Source: Turneriella parva DSM 21527
GTDB lineage: Bacteria; Spirochaetota; Leptospiria; Turneriellales; Turneriellaceae
Assembly (NCBI RefSeq): GCF_000266885.1
Contig: NC_018020.1
Span: 2,666,001-2,730,000 of the forward strand
DNA: 64,000 bases
Direction of reading: 5' to 3'
Made by a program: the position numbers and the translations under genes. The notes beneath the pieces were generated by a model. It worked only from the letters and a program-made list of their open reading frames with translations, searched no databases and had not been told where the DNA came from. Numbering within the stretch: the first letter of the stretch is position 1; each line of letters starts with the position of its first letter. This document shows, piece after piece, positions 21,471 to 52,530 of this stretch.

Positions 21471-21475
21471 GAATT

Positions 21476-21519
21476 GCGAAAACAAGTATGCGCGCTGAGG
21501 CGCGCATACTTGTTTTCGC
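21476..21519 (+). terminator. Perfect 20-bp hairpin after glpX
   Basis: Arms at 21476-21495 and 21500-21519 are fully complementary around a TGAG loop. It is the second hairpin in tandem behind glpX and ends three bases before the ATG of the next gene. If it forms in RNA it would also affect translation of that gene. Confidence 0.6.
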
Positions 21520-21521
21520 TT

Positions 21522-21983
21522 ATGCAATCAGGGCACGAAACCGCGCGCGAAGAATTCACGAATATTCGCGTGGCCCGCGATGGACGCTGGTTCACCGGCG
21601 CGAAAGAAATCATCAACTTCAAGGTAATTTCGCATTTTAAGCAGAACCTGTTTCGTGATGCGAAGGGTGTCTACATCTACCAGACTTTCAGGCAGTTTGC
21701 TGAGAAGGGTTACATCACCGTCGAGGGGCCGCTGCTGTCTGTGTTTCGCATCGACGGCGATACGCTGATTTTCGACAGTCTCGACGCCGTGCCGCTCGAT
21801 GAGCTGCGTGTCGTGCTAAACAGCGACGACGAATCGCCATACATCTATTATGATCGTCTGGGTTGTTATGCCAACGTACCCGCAGGTGTTGCGCCGTATT
21901 TTTCTGAGCGGCTCGAACAGCAGGGGGATCTATTCACCTTCTGTGGTAAACCGGTCGAGTTGCGGTCAATCGCCGTGTGGTAG
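21522..21983 (+). CDS. Conserved hypothetical protein, DUF1285-like
   Basis: 153 residues from ATG 21522; an upstream ATG at 21474 is in frame but would put coding sequence through a 20-bp hairpin. The sequence NIRVARDGRWFTGAKEIINFKVISHFKQNLFRDAKGVYIYQ, then VEGPLLSVFRIDGDTLIFDSLDAVPLD and a late YYDRLGCYANVPAGVAPYFSERL, resembles the DUF1285 pattern (a DGRWF-like opening and a L..D..G.Y/W.I segment). The assignment is tentative and no function is known. The stop codon TAG touches the terminal repeat of the structured element at 21983. Confidence 0.6.
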   Translation: MQSGHETAREEFTNIRVARDGRWFTGAKEIINFKVISHFKQNLFRDAKGVYIYQTFRQFAEKGYITVEGPLLSVFRIDGDTLIFDSLDAVPLDELRVVLNSDDESPYIYYDRLGCYANVPAGVAPYFSERLEQQGDLFTFCGKPVELRSIAVW

Positions 21984-22116
21984 GGTGTCTAAAAGTCGCG
22001 CACCGCGCTGAACAGGCGCGGCGCTCAGACGGAAACCGGCCCGAATGGGCCGATTCGCGTGTATTTGCCGCAGGCAAATGCAGCGTTTTCGTCTGAGCGG
22101 CGACTTTTAGACACCC
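21983..22116. repeat. Cloverleaf-like element with perfect 17-bp terminal inverted repeat
   Basis: Outer arms 21983-21999 and 22100-22116 are perfectly complementary. Inside are a 6-bp hairpin (22003-22008 with 22016-22021), an 8-bp closing stem (22023-22030 with 22091-22098), and within that two more hairpins, 22037-22042/22047-22052 (6 bp, GAAT loop) and 22063-22069/22073-22079 (7 bp). All stems are exact. Together this is a nested multi-arm fold of 134 bp between two same-strand genes. It could be a miniature mobile element or an RNA. No reading frame of note crosses it. Confidence 0.75.
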
Positions 22117-22162
22117 CGGAATTTTCCGTTTTACGCAGCATCTTTTGATCGGTTGATCAACC

Positions 22163-22750: not shown

Positions 22751-22772
22751 GGGGCGGCGCGGAAGGTCCCAA

Positions 22773-22863
22773 AACGACGAATTTCAGGAAAGGTTCCGCG
22801 ATTTTCGAAGCGCAAATCGCTCTATGAACGGGATGAGGCCCGCTTTTCCCGAATTTCGTCGTT
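22773..22863. repeat. Imperfect inverted repeat with inner hairpins
   Basis: Arms 22773-22791 and 22845-22863 match at 17 of 19 positions. Inside lie a perfect 7-bp hairpin (22798-22804 with 22814-22820) and a weaker hairpin at 22829-22842. The right part, 22826-22860, is closely similar to the minus strand of 48319-48352. In both places it stands 3' of a gene in the same orientation. The gap 22751-23000 otherwise holds only the promoter and Fur site of the receptor gene. Confidence 0.6.
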
Positions 22864-22934
22864 CTGCGATGGCTCTAAAATTTCGAATATGGCGACATGC
22901 CGCGCAGCCCTAATGTTCTCTACAAGAAAAAGAC

Positions 22935-36334: not shown

Positions 36335-37672
36335 ATGGCAGCAAAGAAAAAGCCGGCAAAGGCGAAAGCCAAGCCCAAAGCTGAAGCAAGTAAGAAAATT
36401 GAAATCCCCGAAGGGTATTTTGGCGAATTTGGCGGCAGGTTTGTCTCTGACCTGCTGATTCCCGCGCTCGATGAGCTGAGCGCAGCCTGGAAAAAATTCA
36501 GCAACGATAAAAAATTTCAGAAAGAATTGCTCGGGCTATACAATGACTATGCCGGGCGCCCTTCGCTTCTGACCTACGCGGCGAATTTGTCGCAGCGCTA
36601 CCAGGCGCAGATTTATCTGAAGCGCGAAGACCTGTTGCACACCGGGTCGCACAAGATCAATAACACACTCGGGCAGGCGCTTCTCGCGCAAAAGATGAAA
36701 AAGAAGCGCATTATCGCCGAAACCGGGGCAGGGCAGCACGGTGTTGCGACAGCGACCGCGGCGGCGCTGATGAAGATTCCCGCGCATGTCTATATGGGTT
36801 CAGAAGACCTTAGGCGCCAGGCGCTGAATGGCTTTCGCATGCGGCTTCTCGGTGCGACAGTTTCTGGAGTCGGCGGCGAACACGGCACGCTGCGCGACGC
36901 GGTCAATGAAGCGCTGCGCGATTGGGCGAAAAACGTCGATGACACGTATTACCTCATCGGTTCTGCGATTGGTCCGCACCCTTACCCGACAATGGTGCGC
37001 ACGCTGCAATCGGTGATCGGCCGTGAAGCGCGCCAGCAGATTTTGAAAGCCGAAGGCAGGTTACCGCAGGCGGTATTTTCATGCGTCGGCGGTGGTTCAA
37101 ATGCGCTCGGCATGTTTTACGGATTTCTGAAAGACACGAAGGTGCAGCTGATCGGCGCCGAAGCCGGCGGCCGCGCGCTGACCCCCGGTAACCATTCGGC
37201 TTCGCTTACCGCCGGCAAACCCGGCGTGCTGCAGGGGGCAATGACCTACATCATTCAGACTCCCGATGGCCAGGTGCAAGACGTGCATTCGATATCAGCG
37301 GGTCTTGATTATCCCGGTGTGGGGCCTGAGCATGCATATCTCTTGAAACAAGGTAGAACCGAATACGTTGCTGTGCGCGACAAGGCCGCGCTCGAAGCGT
37401 TTCAAGAGCTGGCGCAAGAAGAGGGCATCATTCCCGCGCTCGAGTCGGCGCATGCCGTCGCCGCTGCGAAGAACTACATCGCCGATCTGCGCAAGCAGGG
37501 AAAAAAGAATCCTTTGATTCTGATCTGTCTTTCGGGTCGCGGCGACAAAGACGTGCAAGAGGTCGAACGCCTGCTCGCGCTGCCGCAAGAGCCTGAACTG
37601 CCCGAAGACGCGCCTGCCGCACCGCAGTTCAATACGGTTCCGACAGTGAAAGTGGTAGCGGCCGGCGAATAA
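36335..37672 (+). CDS. trpB: Tryptophan synthase beta chain with basic N-terminal extension
   Basis: 445 residues from ATG 36335. TrpB condenses indole with serine. The N-terminal 22 or so residues are Lys/Ala/Pro repeats (MAAKKKPAKAKAKPKAEASK), absent from usual TrpB. The enzyme starts at IPEGYFGEFGGRFVSDLLIPALDEL. The PLP lysine lies in REDLLHTGSHKINN, and the catalytic Glu in AETGAGQHGVATAT. The Ser-phosphate loop is CVGGGSNALGMF. DVHSISAGLDYPGVGPEH fits the TrpB1 type. A C-terminal tail of about 25 residues is extra. No trpA follows; ispF comes after a 19-bp hairpin. Confidence 0.95.
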   Translation: MAAKKKPAKAKAKPKAEASKKIEIPEGYFGEFGGRFVSDLLIPALDELSAAWKKFSNDKKFQKELLGLYNDYAGRPSLLTYAANLSQRYQAQIYLKREDLLHTGSHKINNTLGQALLAQKMKKKRIIAETGAGQHGVATATAAALMKIPAHVYMGSEDLRRQALNGFRMRLLGATVSGVGGEHGTLRDAVNEALRDWAKNVDDTYYLIGSAIGPHPYPTMVRTLQSVIGREARQQILKAEGRLPQAVFSCVGGGSNALGMFYGFLKDTKVQLIGAEAGGRALTPGNHSASLTAGKPGVLQGAMTYIIQTPDGQVQDVHSISAGLDYPGVGPEHAYLLKQGRTEYVAVRDKAALEAFQELAQEEGIIPALESAHAVAAAKNYIADLRKQGKKNPLILICLSGRGDKDVQEVERLLALPQEPELPEDAPAAPQFNTVPTVKVVAAGE

Positions 37673-37699
37673 TCGCTGGCGCGATTATTCGCCGGCCGC
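37658..37699. terminator. Perfect 19-bp hairpin at trpB stop
   Basis: Arms 37658-37676 and 37681-37699 pair exactly around a TGGC loop. The last four sense codons and the TAA stop of trpB (37670-37672) lie inside the left arm. No U-tract follows. The next gene starts 28 bp downstream. Confidence 0.7.
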
Positions 37700-42146: not shown

Positions 42147-42186
42147 GGCCACCCAAGCTCCGGGCATGCCCGGAGCTTGGGTGGCC
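42147..42186. promoter_or_regulatory. Perfect 40-bp palindrome in a divergent promoter region
   Basis: Bases 42147-42166 are exactly complementary to 42167-42186 with no loop. Unlike the other hairpins in this window it lies between two divergent genes (serA start 42098, methyltransferase start 42198), so it cannot be a terminator for either. It could be an operator, a cruciform site or an RNA leader structure; the methyltransferase ATG is only 11 bp beyond it. Confidence 0.6.
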
Positions 42187-45953: not shown

Positions 45954-47072
45954 TCAGGCTGCAAGTTCCAGGTAAACATCTCGCGTGGCCGCTGCTGCTT
46001 TTTGCCAGGTGAATTGCGCTGCGCGGAGTTTCCCTTTTTCCGAGAGCGAGCGGCATAGTTCAGAGTTTGTCGCGAGAGTGTCGATCGCACTGCGCATCGC
46101 GGCAACCGAATACGGGTCAACGGTCAGCGCGGCCGCCCCCGCAACTTCGGCCATCGCACCAATATTGCTGGTGATCAGGGGACTGCCTAGCGCGAAGGCT
46201 TCGACGATCGGCAGGCCAAAACCTTCAAACACCGAAGGGTAAATTGTGAAGAGTGCGTTCTTATAGAGCGCAACAAGCTGAGCCGAGCTTAAGCCGCGTA
46301 GAAAAAAAATGCGGTCGCGTGCCAGTGATACCTTCGCACGTGCATAAACGGCTTCATGGTTAAAGCCCTGGCCCCCCGCGAATACCAGCAATTGTGAACT
46401 TGCACCGCGCGCATTTTCAAAGGCTTCAATCAGTCTCACCCCATTTTTTCTTTCTTCGACCGAACCGGGGCAGAGGATAAAATTTCCCGGCTCAAGATTG
46501 CCGGGAAGCTTTTGTGCCGGGGTGTCTGCAAGCTGCAGCACCTGGTCAGCTCCGTGTGGTATAACCCTGATGCGGTCATGCGCTTCGGGAAAAAATTGAA
46601 GCATATGCTCGCGCCCGAATTCTGTCGGCACGATTATCCGTTCAGGCCTCAGTTTGTTGATCAGGTAGCGGTTATTGTCCATGCCGCGCTGCTGAAAGCG
46701 CGGGTCGCTGAGGCCGGTTTCGAAAACACTCAGGTCATGCACGGTCACGACGCGTGGCAGGCGGCGTGTGTTGGGAACTTTAAAATCGATGCCGTGGTAG
46801 ACCGCCTTGCGGCTGAGGCACCAGTCGCTGAACGGAGGAATGTAAGTCTTGATTTTAAGATCCGCATGGCGTTTGATGAAATGGCGCCGCTTGAGCCGGC
46901 TGAGCTTAATGAGTCCCGTGAATTCGAGGTCGTCGTATTGCTGCAGCGCGCGCAAGAGGTTCGCGCCGTAGACAACAATGCCGGTAGCGTGTTCCGATGC
47001 GAGCGCGTTGGCGTCCCAGTAGACGAGCACAGGGTGTTTTTTCTGATACCGATGGAGTGCAAAGCACTCCAT
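45954..47072 (-). CDS. Glycosyltransferase family 4
   Basis: About 358-372 residues. GT-B fold with VPHGADQVLQ, then FILCPGSVEERKNGVRLIEAFENAR and DRIFFLRGLSSAQLVALYKNALFTIYPSVFEGFGLPIVEAFALGSPLITSNIGAMAEVAGAAALTVDPYS, the canonical donor-binding EGFGLPxxEA site. The longest frame starts at ATG 47072, but this codon lies in the arm of a perfect hairpin; GTG 47030 starts the natural sequence VLVYWDANALASEHATGIVVYGANLLRAL and may be the true start. If ATG 47072 is used, the hairpin would hide it. Confidence 0.88.
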   Translation of the reverse strand: MECFALHRYQKKHPVLVYWDANALASEHATGIVVYGANLLRALQQYDDLEFTGLIKLSRLKRRHFIKRHADLKIKTYIPPFSDWCLSRKAVYHGIDFKVPNTRRLPRVVTVHDLSVFETGLSDPRFQQRGMDNNRYLINKLRPERIIVPTEFGREHMLQFFPEAHDRIRVIPHGADQVLQLADTPAQKLPGNLEPGNFILCPGSVEERKNGVRLIEAFENARGASSQLLVFAGGQGFNHEAVYARAKVSLARDRIFFLRGLSSAQLVALYKNALFTIYPSVFEGFGLPIVEAFALGSPLITSNIGAMAEVAGAAALTVDPYSVAAMRSAIDTLATNSELCRSLSEKGKLRAAQFTWQKAAAATRDVYLELAA

Positions 47073-47081
47073 CGGTATCAG
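47043..47081. terminator. Perfect 18-bp hairpin between hydrolase and GT4 genes
   Basis: Arms 47043-47060 and 47064-47081 pair exactly around AAA. The hydrolase TGA stop (47078-47080) lies in one arm and the first candidate ATG of the GT4 gene (47070-47072) in the same arm. A short A/T-run (TTTTTT on the plus strand at 47037-47042) lies on the GT4 side. Confidence 0.65.
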
Positions 47082-48076: not shown

Positions 48077-48159
48077 TACCCACCGTCTTTTTGGTGTTCA
48101 GTCTGCAAAGTTAAAATTTGAACATTTGTTCACCAATGGCGCGTGATTTTTGTGGGCTC

Positions 48160-48234
48160 GGGAAATTCGCAAGCAGGCGTTTCGCCGCTTTAGCAGCAAT
48201 TTTCGCAGAAAATTGCGAGGCTTGCGAATTTTCC
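48160..48234. repeat. Intergenic inverted repeat with inner hairpins
   Basis: Outer arms 48161-48174 and 48220-48234 match with one bulged T. Inside, 48196-48203 and 48209-48216 form a perfect 8-bp hairpin. The gap 48077-48350 holds this element and a terminator hairpin but no gene. The arms share a GGAAATTCG-like sequence with the element at 22773-22863. Confidence 0.55.
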
Positions 48235-48318
48235 GTCGTGCCCGATATGCAAATCAGATTTTGGGCCCACGAAATTCCACGCGCCTGGGTAAAGGTCTCA
48301 TCACTGGCAGGGCTAAAT

Positions 48319-49555: not shown

Positions 49556-51159
49556 TGTCGCTCGAACAGAAGTCGCATAACCGCGAGACGCTGAAGAACT
49601 CTTCGATCTTTTCGCTCTTCACCTCGATGTCGCGGGTGCTTGGGCTGTTGCGCGATATGCTGAAGGCATATGCGTTCGGTACCGGGCCGCTGTCTGTTGC
49701 CTTTGATATTGCCTTTCGCCTCAACAACATGCTGCGCAACCTGGTTGCCGAAGGTGCGCTGTCGCAGGCATTCGTGCCGCTCTACAACCGCTACGCGGCC
49801 GAGGGTGAGAATAAGGCGCGCGAGGCTGCAGGCGTCGTGATTGTGTTTGTTGCGATTACCATGACGCTGGTTACCTGCGTGGTGATCTTTGCGCTGCCCT
49901 ATCTTATGCCGCTCTTGCTTGCGAGCGAACACATGCCGGCCGACCAGCTGCAACTCACGATAAACCTCAGCCAGTTGCTTTTCCCTTATCTCGTGATGAT
50001 GAGCGTCGCATCGCTCTACATGGGCATACAATATTCTCACAAGATATTCTGGGCAGCGAGCTTTGGCCCGGCGCTGTTGAATATTGTTATTTTGGTGTTT
50101 TTCGGCGCTTATGCCGCTTGGGTGCGCCTGACGCATGGCGCCTTCGACGTGACTTCTGTCTACGTATTTTCAATCGCGACCCTCGCGGCGGCAGTCGCTC
50201 AGGTGGCCTTTCAGATCTATACCGTTCACCGCCGCGGCCTGGCACCGCGTTACAGTTTTTCGCTGAAGCACGGAGCGTTAAAGGCTCTGGGCTCGATGAT
50301 GCTACCGGCAGTTTTTGCAGCGTCGATGCAAGAAGTTGGCCAGCTCATCGACGTGTATCTCGCGACGTCGCTCAGCGACCGCGTGCCTGAAGCGATCTCT
50401 GCGCTCACCTATTCGCATCGCCTGATTCAGCTGCCGATCGGTGTTTTCGGCGTCGCGGTTGCGACAGCCAGCCTGCCACAGCTTTCGAAAATTTACCAAA
50501 CTGATGCAACAGGCGAGACGTTCTCAGGCAGCCTTGCCTACTCGGTGAGGCTTAACTTCTTCTTTCTATTGCCCGCGGTCGCCGGTCTGATGGTTTTCAG
50601 CGAGCCGATTGTGCGTGTCATCTTTCAGCGTGGCGCTTTCACCGGTCGATCGACCGAAGTCACGGCGCTCGCGCTGATGTGTTATGCCCCTGGCATTCTC
50701 GCGTATTCGCTGCAGAAACTTTTCACTATTTCGCTCTATGCGCGCATGAACACACATACCCCCGCGATCATCACGGCCGTTGCGCTTGTCATGAATTTCG
50801 CTTTAAGTCTCTTTCTCATGCAGTCGATGCTGCACGGCGGTCTTGCTGCAGGCTCGGCCATTGCAGCATGGTGTGGAGTTCTCATTTACATCGTCGTTTT
50901 GCTGCGGGGCAAGGTTCTGCGCTCCCCCATTACGCTATTGCAAGACCTGGCGCGTATTTTTGCCGTGAACCTGGTATTCGCAGGTTTGCTCGTGGCGCTG
51001 CGCCAGTATGTCTTTCCCGAGCGGGCTTTGTTGCAACTCGCAGTGGCGATACCTGTGGCTATGGCGGCATACGTAGCTCTTGCGCGCGTGGCGCACATAG
51101 CCGAGGCGCATGTGCTGACGGAATTTTTGACCAGACTGCGGCGACGTCTGCCATTCTAA
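49555..51159 (+). CDS. murJ: Lipid II flippase MurJ
   Basis: 534 residues, start GTG 49555 overlapping the upstream stop. MurJ moves lipid II over the inner membrane for peptidoglycan synthesis. About 14 membrane helices; SSIFSLFTSMSRVLGLLRDMLKAYAFGTGPLSVAFDIAFRLNNMLRNLVAEGALSQAFVPLYN is the hallmark N-terminus with the conserved Arg residues (SRVLGLLRD) and the LRNLVAEGALSQAFVP motif. ALTYSHRLIQLPIGVFGVAVATASLPQLSKI and IVRVIFQRGAFTGRSTEVTALALMCYAPGILAYSLQKLF are typical of the second half. A perfect 18-bp hairpin covers its stop. Confidence 0.95.
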   Translation: MSLEQKSHNRETLKNSSIFSLFTSMSRVLGLLRDMLKAYAFGTGPLSVAFDIAFRLNNMLRNLVAEGALSQAFVPLYNRYAAEGENKAREAAGVVIVFVAITMTLVTCVVIFALPYLMPLLLASEHMPADQLQLTINLSQLLFPYLVMMSVASLYMGIQYSHKIFWAASFGPALLNIVILVFFGAYAAWVRLTHGAFDVTSVYVFSIATLAAAVAQVAFQIYTVHRRGLAPRYSFSLKHGALKALGSMMLPAVFAASMQEVGQLIDVYLATSLSDRVPEAISALTYSHRLIQLPIGVFGVAVATASLPQLSKIYQTDATGETFSGSLAYSVRLNFFFLLPAVAGLMVFSEPIVRVIFQRGAFTGRSTEVTALALMCYAPGILAYSLQKLFTISLYARMNTHTPAIITAVALVMNFALSLFLMQSMLHGGLAAGSAIAAWCGVLIYIVVLLRGKVLRSPITLLQDLARIFAVNLVFAGLLVALRQYVFPERALLQLAVAIPVAMAAYVALARVAHIAEAHVLTEFLTRLRRRLPF

Positions 51160-51198
51160 TTCTTACTTGGCACGCCAACGGGCGTGCCAAGTAAGAAT
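51159..51198 (+). terminator. Perfect 18-bp hairpin after murJ
   Basis: Arms 51159-51176 and 51181-51198 pair exactly with an AACG loop. The stem begins on the last base of the murJ TAA. No U-tract. The ATG of the next gene is four bases further, so it may be sequestered or the hairpin may only work as a processing site. Confidence 0.65.
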
Positions 51199-51202
51199 CC
51201 TC

Positions 51203-51883
51203 ATGCGTTTTATCGTGCTTCGCCATCAAGAAGAAGAAGGTCTCGGCACTATTGCCGAATGGCTGAAACTAAACGGACACTCGCATTTCTATGTGAACCT
51301 ATTCGCAAAGCAGCGCCCACCGTCGAATGCGCTCATGGCATACGACGCGCTCGTGTCAATGGGTGGGCCCATGTCGGTCAATGACGACAGTGAGCTCATG
51401 CAGACGTCACTTGCGCTGACCGCTGATTTCGTGCAGGCGAAGAGGCCGGTCTTAGGTGTTTGCCTCGGCGCACAGGCAATTGCAAAGGTGGCCGGTGGCA
51501 CAGTTGCGCAATCTGCCTTTGAACTCGGGTTTGACCGCGTCTCGCCGGTATCGGCGCACCCATTCTTTGCCTCTGGAAAGCTGGCGGTCGAAGATTGGGA
51601 TGTCTTTCAATGGCATGGCGAAAACTTTACGCTCCCGGCAGGTGCCGCTCACCTGTTCAGCGGCAAGCTTGTCGCAAACCAGGGTTTCACCTACAAGCAG
51701 GCTCTCGGCCTGCAGTTTCACAACGAACTTTCACTGGAATGGTATACAATGTGGTACGAGGGCCTGCGCCACAAATTCGAGAATATGGATAAACTCGTAC
51801 CACCCTCGGCTGATATGCCGTTTGTGTCTCTCAAGACGAATTTGTTCGCTCTGTTGAATACTTGGCAACGCGAATGGTCTTAG
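51203..51883 (+). CDS. Class I glutamine amidotransferase-domain protein
   Basis: 226 residues from ATG 51203. The nucleophile Cys is in VLGVCLGAQAIAKVAGG (about residue 88), and the His and Glu in LGLQFHNELSLEWY (about 175-180, with Asn between so the pair is His-x-Glu). MGGPMSVNDD is the usual loop. No synthase domain is fused and no such partner lies beside it. The family includes gamma-glutamyl-peptide hydrolase-like and GuaA-like proteins of unknown role. It has no ribosome site of its own apart from the hairpin region. Confidence 0.85.
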   Translation: MRFIVLRHQEEEGLGTIAEWLKLNGHSHFYVNLFAKQRPPSNALMAYDALVSMGGPMSVNDDSELMQTSLALTADFVQAKRPVLGVCLGAQAIAKVAGGTVAQSAFELGFDRVSPVSAHPFFASGKLAVEDWDVFQWHGENFTLPAGAAHLFSGKLVANQGFTYKQALGLQFHNELSLEWYTMWYEGLRHKFENMDKLVPPSADMPFVSLKTNLFALLNTWQREWS

Positions 51884-52530
51884 CCTTTTTGCCCATGAAT
51901 TAATTCATGGGCAAAAAGGCGCACGAACTTCTCAATGCCCTCTTTCCTAGCCCCGAACCGAAACGCATCACCAATTACAGCAAAGTAAACACGTTCGTGT
52001 TTGGGCAGCTCGTGAACATTATCGAGCGTAATGCCGCCGATCAGAACCAGCGGTAACGACGTGCGCGTCAGATATTCGCCGACCACGTGCCGGTTGGTCG
52101 CGACATCAGGCTTGGTCGGGCTGGGGAACATGGTGCCGAGCGCAATGTACGCAGGCGCTGGTTTGGCTTTGAGCGCGAGGGCGAGTTCGGCAAAACCGTG
52201 CGTCGATCTGCCGTAAGGCACGGTCAGCCCAGAAGGCAGCGCATCTTCTTGCCCCAGATGCAGCGGCAGTGCATACTTTTCTGCGAGCCCAGCATGGTCA
52301 TTGACCACAAGGCTCGTGCCAGCGCTGCGGCATATGTCTATCAGCGGCAAAAGATTCGTTTCGTACTCGCGCGCCGAAATACCCTTATGCCGGTATTGTA
52401 TCGTTCTGCATCCCCCTTTGGTTGCGCCGGTGACAAAATCAGCGGTAGTCAGACCGTGCTTTGCGCAGGTTTCACCGTCGCAGATAAGGTAGAGGTGATA
52501 TTGATCGGATAAAATACCGCTTGCGTGCAT
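51880..52530 (-). CDS. thiE: Thiamine-phosphate synthase-like protein
   Basis: 216 residues from ATG 52530; GTG 52575 would add 15. ThiE joins HMP-PP and THZ-P to thiamine phosphate. The TIM-barrel landmarks: YHLYLICDGETCAKHGLTTADFVTGATKGGCRTIQYRHKGISAREYETNLLPLIDICRSAGTSLVVNDHAGLAEKYALPLHLGQEDALPSG, then STHGFAELALALKAKPAPAYIALGTMFPSPTKPD, PLVLIGGITLDNVHEL and VYFAVIGDAFRFG. The usual (Q)R.K..... pyrophosphate site appears as IQYRHKG. No other thi genes and no TPP riboswitch are nearby. Its last ten codons run through the palindrome shared with the convergent gene. Confidence 0.85.
   Translation of the reverse strand: MHASGILSDQYHLYLICDGETCAKHGLTTADFVTGATKGGCRTIQYRHKGISAREYETNLLPLIDICRSAGTSLVVNDHAGLAEKYALPLHLGQEDALPSGLTVPYGRSTHGFAELALALKAKPAPAYIALGTMFPSPTKPDVATNRHVVGEYLTRTSLPLVLIGGITLDNVHELPKHERVYFAVIGDAFRFGARKEGIEKFVRLFAHELIHGQKG
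51883..51920. terminator. Perfect 38-bp palindrome in convergent 3' ends
   Basis: 51883-51901 is exactly complementary to 51902-51920. It starts at the last base of the amidotransferase stop and lies wholly inside the 3' coding end of thiE, so thiE codons are fixed by the palindrome. A run of five T (or A) is inside the arm on both strands, which could act as a bidirectional terminator. Confidence 0.7.

Follow-up and report, generated by a model that had tools for sequence, protein, structure and literature searches.

Structured palindromic repeats with a common apex in Turneriella parva and its relatives, probably a non-autonomous mobile family

The stretch of DNA analyzed here (the window) comprises 64,000 nucleotides of the Turneriella parva DSM 21527 genome (RefSeq assembly GCF_000266885.1, contig NC_018020.1, positions 2,666,001 to 2,730,000 of the forward strand), and coordinates are counted from its first letter. 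The genome has 4,409,302 bases in two contigs, and the same length is given for Turneriella parva H(T) in its description (PMC3746428). The gene order at the locus is glpX, an ORF at 21474–21983 for which no Pfam match was found, a 134-base palindromic element, a cytochrome b561 gene, and a TonB receptor gene. The element, its parts, and two further members of the same family in the window are located as follows, the strand being given after the coordinates and the evidence in brackets.

21981–21983, + strand: TAG stop codon of the upstream ORF (21474–21983), overlapping the element by one base (sequence, ORF calls)
21983–22116, + strand (the strand modelled by covariance models R1 and R2): full-length element of subfamily 1, with ends GGG(G)NTGTCTAAAAAGTCGC (R2, 138.7 bits at 21980–22118)
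21983–21999, + strand: left arm of the terminal stem, 17 bp exact (arm complementarity)
22003–22021, + strand: side hairpin CCGCGC-TGAACAG-GCGCGG (sequence, A2 alignment)
22022–22036, + strand: left arm of the inner stem, CGCTCAGACGGAAAC (sequence, fold, alignment)
22037–22052, + strand: apical hairpin 1, CGGCCC-GAAT-GGGCCG, belonging to the core conserved across subfamilies (fold, alignments)
22053–22084, + strand: junction linker and apical hairpin 2, ATTCGCGTGT ATTTGCC-GCA-GGCAAAT GCAGC (fold, alignments)
22085–22099, + strand: right arm of the inner stem, GTTTTCGTCTGAGCG (sequence, fold, alignment)
22100–22116, + strand: right arm of the terminal stem (arm complementarity)
22752–22911, − strand: third, distant and tentative family member, of subfamily 3, with ends GGGCTGCGCGGC (R2, 23.9 bits, E 0.001)
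48114–48255, + strand: second, diverged family member (R2, 57.1 bits, E 5e-12; folded)

A preliminary description, made from the sequence alone, had reported perfect 17-bp terminal inverted repeats, and the two terminal arms are indeed exactly complementary. The five exact stems that it listed (17, 6, 8, 6, and 7 bp) are all real, with the side-hairpin stem CCGCGC/GCGCGG pairing 22003–22008 with 22016–22021, the stem of apical hairpin 1 (CGGCCC/GGGCCG) pairing 22037–22042 with 22047–22052, and that of apical hairpin 2 (ATTTGCC/GGCAAAT) pairing 22063–22069 with 22073–22079. The inner stem proved longer than the 8 bp it was given, however: CGCTCAGACG pairs with CGTCTGAGCG over 10 bp (22022–22031 with 22090–22099), and a G.U and four more pairs follow. 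The left end had been placed next to the upstream stop codon and, since the TAG lies at 21981–21983, the element does start on the last base of that codon, which is the first base of the left arm. RNA folding of the 134-base region gave −95.8 kcal/mol, whereas shuffled sequences averaged −54.2 (sd 4.4, z −9.39), and none of 200 shuffles folded as well as the element. The predicted shape is a three-way junction nested inside a three-way junction and not a tRNA cloverleaf. An Rfam covariance-model search with the window copy and ten other loci, at E up to 1, returned no match. The window copy is flanked by GGTA on the left and CGGA on the right, without a direct repeat, and the sequence immediately after it is CGGAATTTTCC.

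A DNA search of the T. parva genome returned 10 copies covering most of the 134 bases, the window copy included, the nine others being 77–91% identical to it; short forms of about 45–60 bp were also present. With an E cut-off of 1, covariance model R1, built from 14 copies, had matches in 6 of the 14 genomes searched. Model R2, built from 55 rows, was applied to 48 genomes of the class with an E cut-off of 0.001 and gave 122 match rows in nine of them; a few rows represent an element already counted, read on its other strand. The nine comprise the whole genus (seven genomes), a single genome from another family, and one genome with a weak match. The rows were distributed as G000 36, G002 23, G005 12, G006 12, G003 11, G004 10, G001 9, G040 8, and G016 1. 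G040 is the genome from another family of the class, and the 39 genomes without an R2 match include all six others of its family, which act as a negative control. A scan of the window with R2, run without filters, gave the three members listed above. Its third member (22752–22911) sits between the cytochrome b561 and TonB receptor ORFs, and similar DNA is found in G003 and G001.

A first match in another family (L065 of G030) was set aside, as it overlaps ORFs and was confirmed by neither R1 nor R2. Spread to other phyla was likewise rejected: an exact core pattern occurred at 15 loci in genome contigs, of which R1 passed the Turneriella locus only, and the remaining 14 were ascribed to chance. 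The exact core pattern was absent from viral contigs, and DNA searches of plasmid and phage collections gave no match with the queries tried. Literature searches on palindromic, repeat, transposable, or non-coding RNA elements of Turneriella and on MITEs of spirochetes and Leptospira brought up nothing about a family of this kind in the matches listed.

Common to the subfamilies are a terminal stem and an inner stem topped by a conserved three-way junction, and most also have a side hairpin. At the apex, a linker such as GTTTTGC or GCTTTAGC separates a short GGCC hairpin from a second hairpin; in many other copies the counterpart of the window copy's linker is GTTTTGCG or similar, and the unpaired letters of the junction are conserved. 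At least six subfamilies can be told apart by their ends, for example GGGGNTGTCTAAAAAGTCGC, GAGCGTGCGTTAAAATGCGC, GGGGCTGCGCGGCAGGTCG, CAGGCTGTTGAAAAACAGCC, GGCACCTCTAAAAAAGCC, and GAGTCTGTTGAAAAACAGAC. These terminal sequences vary between subfamilies and the arms stay largely complementary. Clustering of alignment A4 (55 rows, below) at 75% identity gives 31 clusters. The branched shape is kept while the sequence changes, and it is unusual that the apex is common to the family while the ends drift in pairs. In subfamilies 4 and 6 and in G040, a small hairpin stands in tandem with the element.

Other palindromes were observed alongside the family. The window holds six perfect hairpins with stems of 17–20 bp and loops of 3–4 nt, without evident common sequence (21476–21519, 37658–37699, 42147–42186, 47043–47081, 51159–51198, and 51883–51920). 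Ten perfect hairpins of at least 10 bp were counted in the 64 kb, compared with 0.5 in block shuffles, and those of at least 14 bp numbered nine in 113 kb of T. parva stretches and one in 112 kb of unrelated loci. At L204 and L214 of G040, solo 22-bp hairpins (GAGGCTGTTGAAAAACAGCCTC and GAGTCTGTTGAAAAACAGACTC) occur without the rest of the element. At L188, L142, L095, and L064, the apical arms are enlarged by additional hairpins nested within hairpins, as though palindromes were inserted in, or had grown from, the loops of other palindromes.

Covariation was examined in two alignments, A2 (MAFFT, 14 rows, not fitted to the structure) and A4 (55 rows, fitted to the model and including one opposite-strand row, L073). 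In A2, 94.5% of cells pair and 30 of the 56 pairs have two-sided changes; none of 500 shuffles reached any of the five measures, and pairing fell to 40–43% when the partner was shifted by one to three columns. The six G/C pairs of the side hairpin are invariant across the 14 sequences. Two-sided changes are seen at 55 of 56 pairs in A4, an alignment fitted to the model. The preliminary description had named the lack of a second copy and of compensatory changes as what would refute it, and the result was the opposite on both counts, with nine further copies in T. parva and compensatory changes at 30 of 56 pairs in the 14 copies. Its suggestion of recent spread does not suit subfamily 1, given the 77–91% identity of the copies and a window copy without a target duplication; the exact stems are a better fit to continued co-change of both arms than to a recent origin.

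The identity of the paired molecule was approached through mismatches. If the constraint acted on double-stranded DNA only, G.U and A.C mismatches would be expected to be equally frequent. In 10 close copies, 37 cells were changed, 10 of them compensated (7 of transition and 3 of transversion type) and 27 single (12 G.U, 6 A.C, and 9 other). At cluster level the GU:AC ratio in A4, an alignment that leans to G.U, was 89:44, and 60:37 without the richest pairs. Strand-symmetric counts in exact helices with unique contexts gave 46:26 with three flanking pairs and 18:8 with four; note, however, that the asymmetry was gone (8:7) in the strictest count (k=5). From G.U being about twice as frequent as A.C on the modelled strand, we infer that one folded single strand is under selection. 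The G.U excess thus points to folding of the modelled strand as a single strand, without distinguishing between RNA and ssDNA.

The genomic setting of the copies was then considered. Among 36 T. parva copies, none lies inside a called ORF; 12 are in convergent, 15 in tandem, and 8 in divergent gaps, with one at a locus edge, and 24 are at most 30 nt from a stop codon by hand count on crude gene calls. Relative to the neighboring genes at the 15 tandem sites, 10 copies had the same and 5 the opposite orientation (hand count), without significant bias, and nothing was seen along assumed replichores either (25 versus 18 of 43, hand count, with the origin assumed at position 1).

Flanks were tested after leaving out truncated or partial matches (9 or 10 loci), together with matches too near a locus end. 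Direct repeats of at least 4 bp adjoin both ends of 27 of 82 elements, against a null mean of 10.9 and a maximum of 19 in 500 permutations, so that up to a third of the 27 would be chance; repeats of at least 5 bp were found at 10 of 82 against 2.8 under the null. They include CTATT, TGAAT, CAGAA, CCATCT, TTAG, CTAA, CTTA, and CTGAAA. Most of subfamily 1 resembles the window copy in having no flanking direct repeat. Flanks that continue the inverted repeat by at least 4 bp were also in excess (9 of 82 versus 3.1 under the null), and plain target duplication does not explain these.

Orthologous sites were compared in relatives. The clearest empty site is that of L110, where the G002 flanks are joined by about 10 bp and T. 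parva has ACTAGG and ACTGGG beside the element. For the window copy, the orthologous gene ends were read in G002, G003, and G006, and none has the element. The L001 site offers no clean empty site in G003, as the neighboring gene differs, and the L217 region has almost no counterpart there. The sites of L008, L200, and L004 in G003 are without the element, but unrelated palindromes, two of them long, are in place. At its loci L224 (site A, read by eye from the sequences as the MAFFT alignment was poor), L223 (site B), and L228 (site D), G003 has unrelated palindromes where T. parva has a family member, as if gene-end palindromes replaced one another. At the L031/L061 locus, a short form in T. 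parva and a full form in G003 share the same flanks, and the block missing from the short form is bounded by short direct repeats; this deletion matches slippage across a hairpin, the mechanism that we would propose for it.

One interpretation of these data, and in our judgment probably the right one, places the element in a new family of non-autonomous palindromic repeats that are mobile and MITE-like, MITE being used in its broad sense. The copies, dozens of them in T. parva and its relatives, are short, dispersed, and intergenic, they have terminal inverted repeats, and target duplications at family level and filled and empty sites accompany them. Forms with internal deletions likewise speak for mobility. 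The preliminary description had proposed either a MITE-like element or a structured RNA; its reading is supported, the mobile option being the better grounded of the two owing to the 4–6 bp direct repeats flanking family members and the element-free sites in relatives. Cutting at the element ends would be the work of a transposase acting in trans, whose gene lies, or once lay, elsewhere in these lineages, and insertion would follow by a staggered cut, mostly in intergenic DNA beside stop codons and perhaps at small palindromes. The selected form would be one folded single strand, either ssDNA during movement or RNA. The window copy itself is probably near neutral for the host, lying in a safe gap after a stop codon.

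A structured RNA family (a small RNA or 3′ UTR element), in which function selects the fold and dispersal is incidental, would account for the strong covariation, the roughly 2:1 GU over AC on one strand, the conserved unpaired letters of the junction, and the many copies directly after stop codons. We nevertheless regard it as unlikely. The Rfam search was empty, orientation to the neighboring genes (10 versus 5) shows no significant bias, and the element is missing at the readable orthologous sites in relatives, so those loci are not under long-term selection. Moreover, G.U makes up just 4.8% of paired-column cells, and double changes of transversion type outnumber those of transition type over the 14 A2 rows (30 versus 13), although the order is reversed in the close copies (3 versus 7).

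The mobile reading leads to the question of a partner enzyme, and the preliminary description had suggested looking for a transposase with the same ends. No autonomous element with matching ends was found among the PF13751 and PF01797 genes examined, and the partner may have been lost. A PF13751 partner (a family that we take to be IS1182-like) had been prompted by the ends and the palindromic flanks; it was not supported, since PF13751 is absent from T. parva and occurs in G006 only among the seven genus genomes, there with ends, GAGCCTCATGCGCC, that are unrelated to the element. In G006, a 0.5-kb stretch that includes part of a PF13751 transposase is also present three times (L151, L152, and L153); two of the three carry 21-bp ends that are GAGCCTCATGCGCCAACTCGC or close to it.

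Movement of a REP/BIME-like element by a Y1 (RAYT, TIRYT) transposase through single-stranded hairpins appears improbable. Y1 genes occur in five of the seven genus genomes, several copies begin after TAG or TTAG, and the tandem small hairpin of subfamilies 4, 6, and G040 would suit such a system. However, the Y1 genes are flanked by their own, different palindromes, many of them centered on TTTAAA, and next to these genes R2 found no full-length member; the palindromes that it found there are all short, among them one of 43 nt at L106 whose ends are GGGGTTGTCC. Target duplications of 4–6 bp are not expected of Y1 enzymes, which also counts against it. At L101, L102, L105, L107, and L109, the Y1 genes are flanked by inverted palindromes such as TGTAGGGGTAGGTTTAAACCTACCCCTACA and GCCACGGGTTTAAACCCGTGGC and appear to be REPtrons in their own right.

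Intrinsic terminators or gene-end hairpins that turn over can be given very little credence, for although most copies lie beside stop codons, T runs follow single copies such as L003, L007, L009, and L010, and G003 has other hairpins at three of the sites, T runs near the 3′ end are not enriched (5 of 85, with 6 and 4 at the two distances used as controls), A runs precede the 5′ end in 9 versus 4 and 6 at the controls, and a usual terminator hairpin would not enclose a further 100 nt of structure.

Among known systems, YPAL of Yersinia seems most alike in behavior, in structure, duplications, and possibly dyad targets (PMC2229807, available portion). The portions available of PMC2229807 and PMC2267715 describe YPAL/RU-2 as palindromic, intergenic sequences of about 130–170 bp with a conserved predicted structure, with targets that span or adjoin dyad symmetry, variable-length target duplications, and recent mobility seen from empty sites; for YPAL, duplications of 3–26 bp and internal inverted repeats are given in the former. 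In contrast, the Turneriella element has terminal stems, 4–6 bp duplications, an apical three-way junction, and a spirochete host. Possible signs of dyad targets, a YPAL trait, are the excess of inverted flanks and the palindromes in G003, the latter at three sites and without a genome-wide background.

Conserved ends are a feature of ERIC, Correia/NEMIS, and RUP, whereas the Turneriella ends vary between subfamilies and the apex is common. Those elements are otherwise described, in the parts of the sources at hand, as small repeats near genes with terminal inverted repeats and foldable transcripts (PMC2229807, PMC3733652) and with TA at the termini (PMC2229807). Dispersed extragenic hairpins and Y1 transposases in the same genomes recall REP/REPIN sequences with their RAYT; however, a REP is defined as a GTAG-tagged unit of 20–40 bp in the available text of PMC3733652, and the Turneriella element is neither such a unit nor linked to Y1 genes.

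Integron attC sites are also palindromes that keep their structure while the sequence varies, and they are located after a stop codon. Their consensus boxes are RYYYAAC and GTTRRRY, and the identity was rejected as the outer boxes of the Turneriella element, GTCTAAA and TTTAGAC, are unlike these; its copies are moreover scattered singly rather than arrayed.

The mobile reading in its plain MITE form meets the difficulty that a usual MITE conserves its ends and the ends of this family are not conserved across subfamilies. It is conceivable, and we put it forward tentatively, that an enzyme reads the folded single strand through the apical three-way junction and that the terminal stems serve by pairing alone and are free to drift to any sequence as long as their arms still pair. 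This would explain how 31 sequence clusters come to have one core and, if true, such a shape-addressed element would be the reverse of ordinary MITEs with their fixed ends. If the apex and not the ends is recognized, the family would represent a structure-reading transposition system outside IS200/IS605 and integrons. The more than one hundred model matches amount to a natural covariation experiment, with which one may ask if pairing is kept for RNA, for ssDNA, or by palindrome correction. Without the covariance model, the copies of this repeat would pass for numerous intergenic hairpins with no relation to one another. Free-living spirochetes of this lineage thus gain a family of structured, probably mobile repeats that is well delimited.
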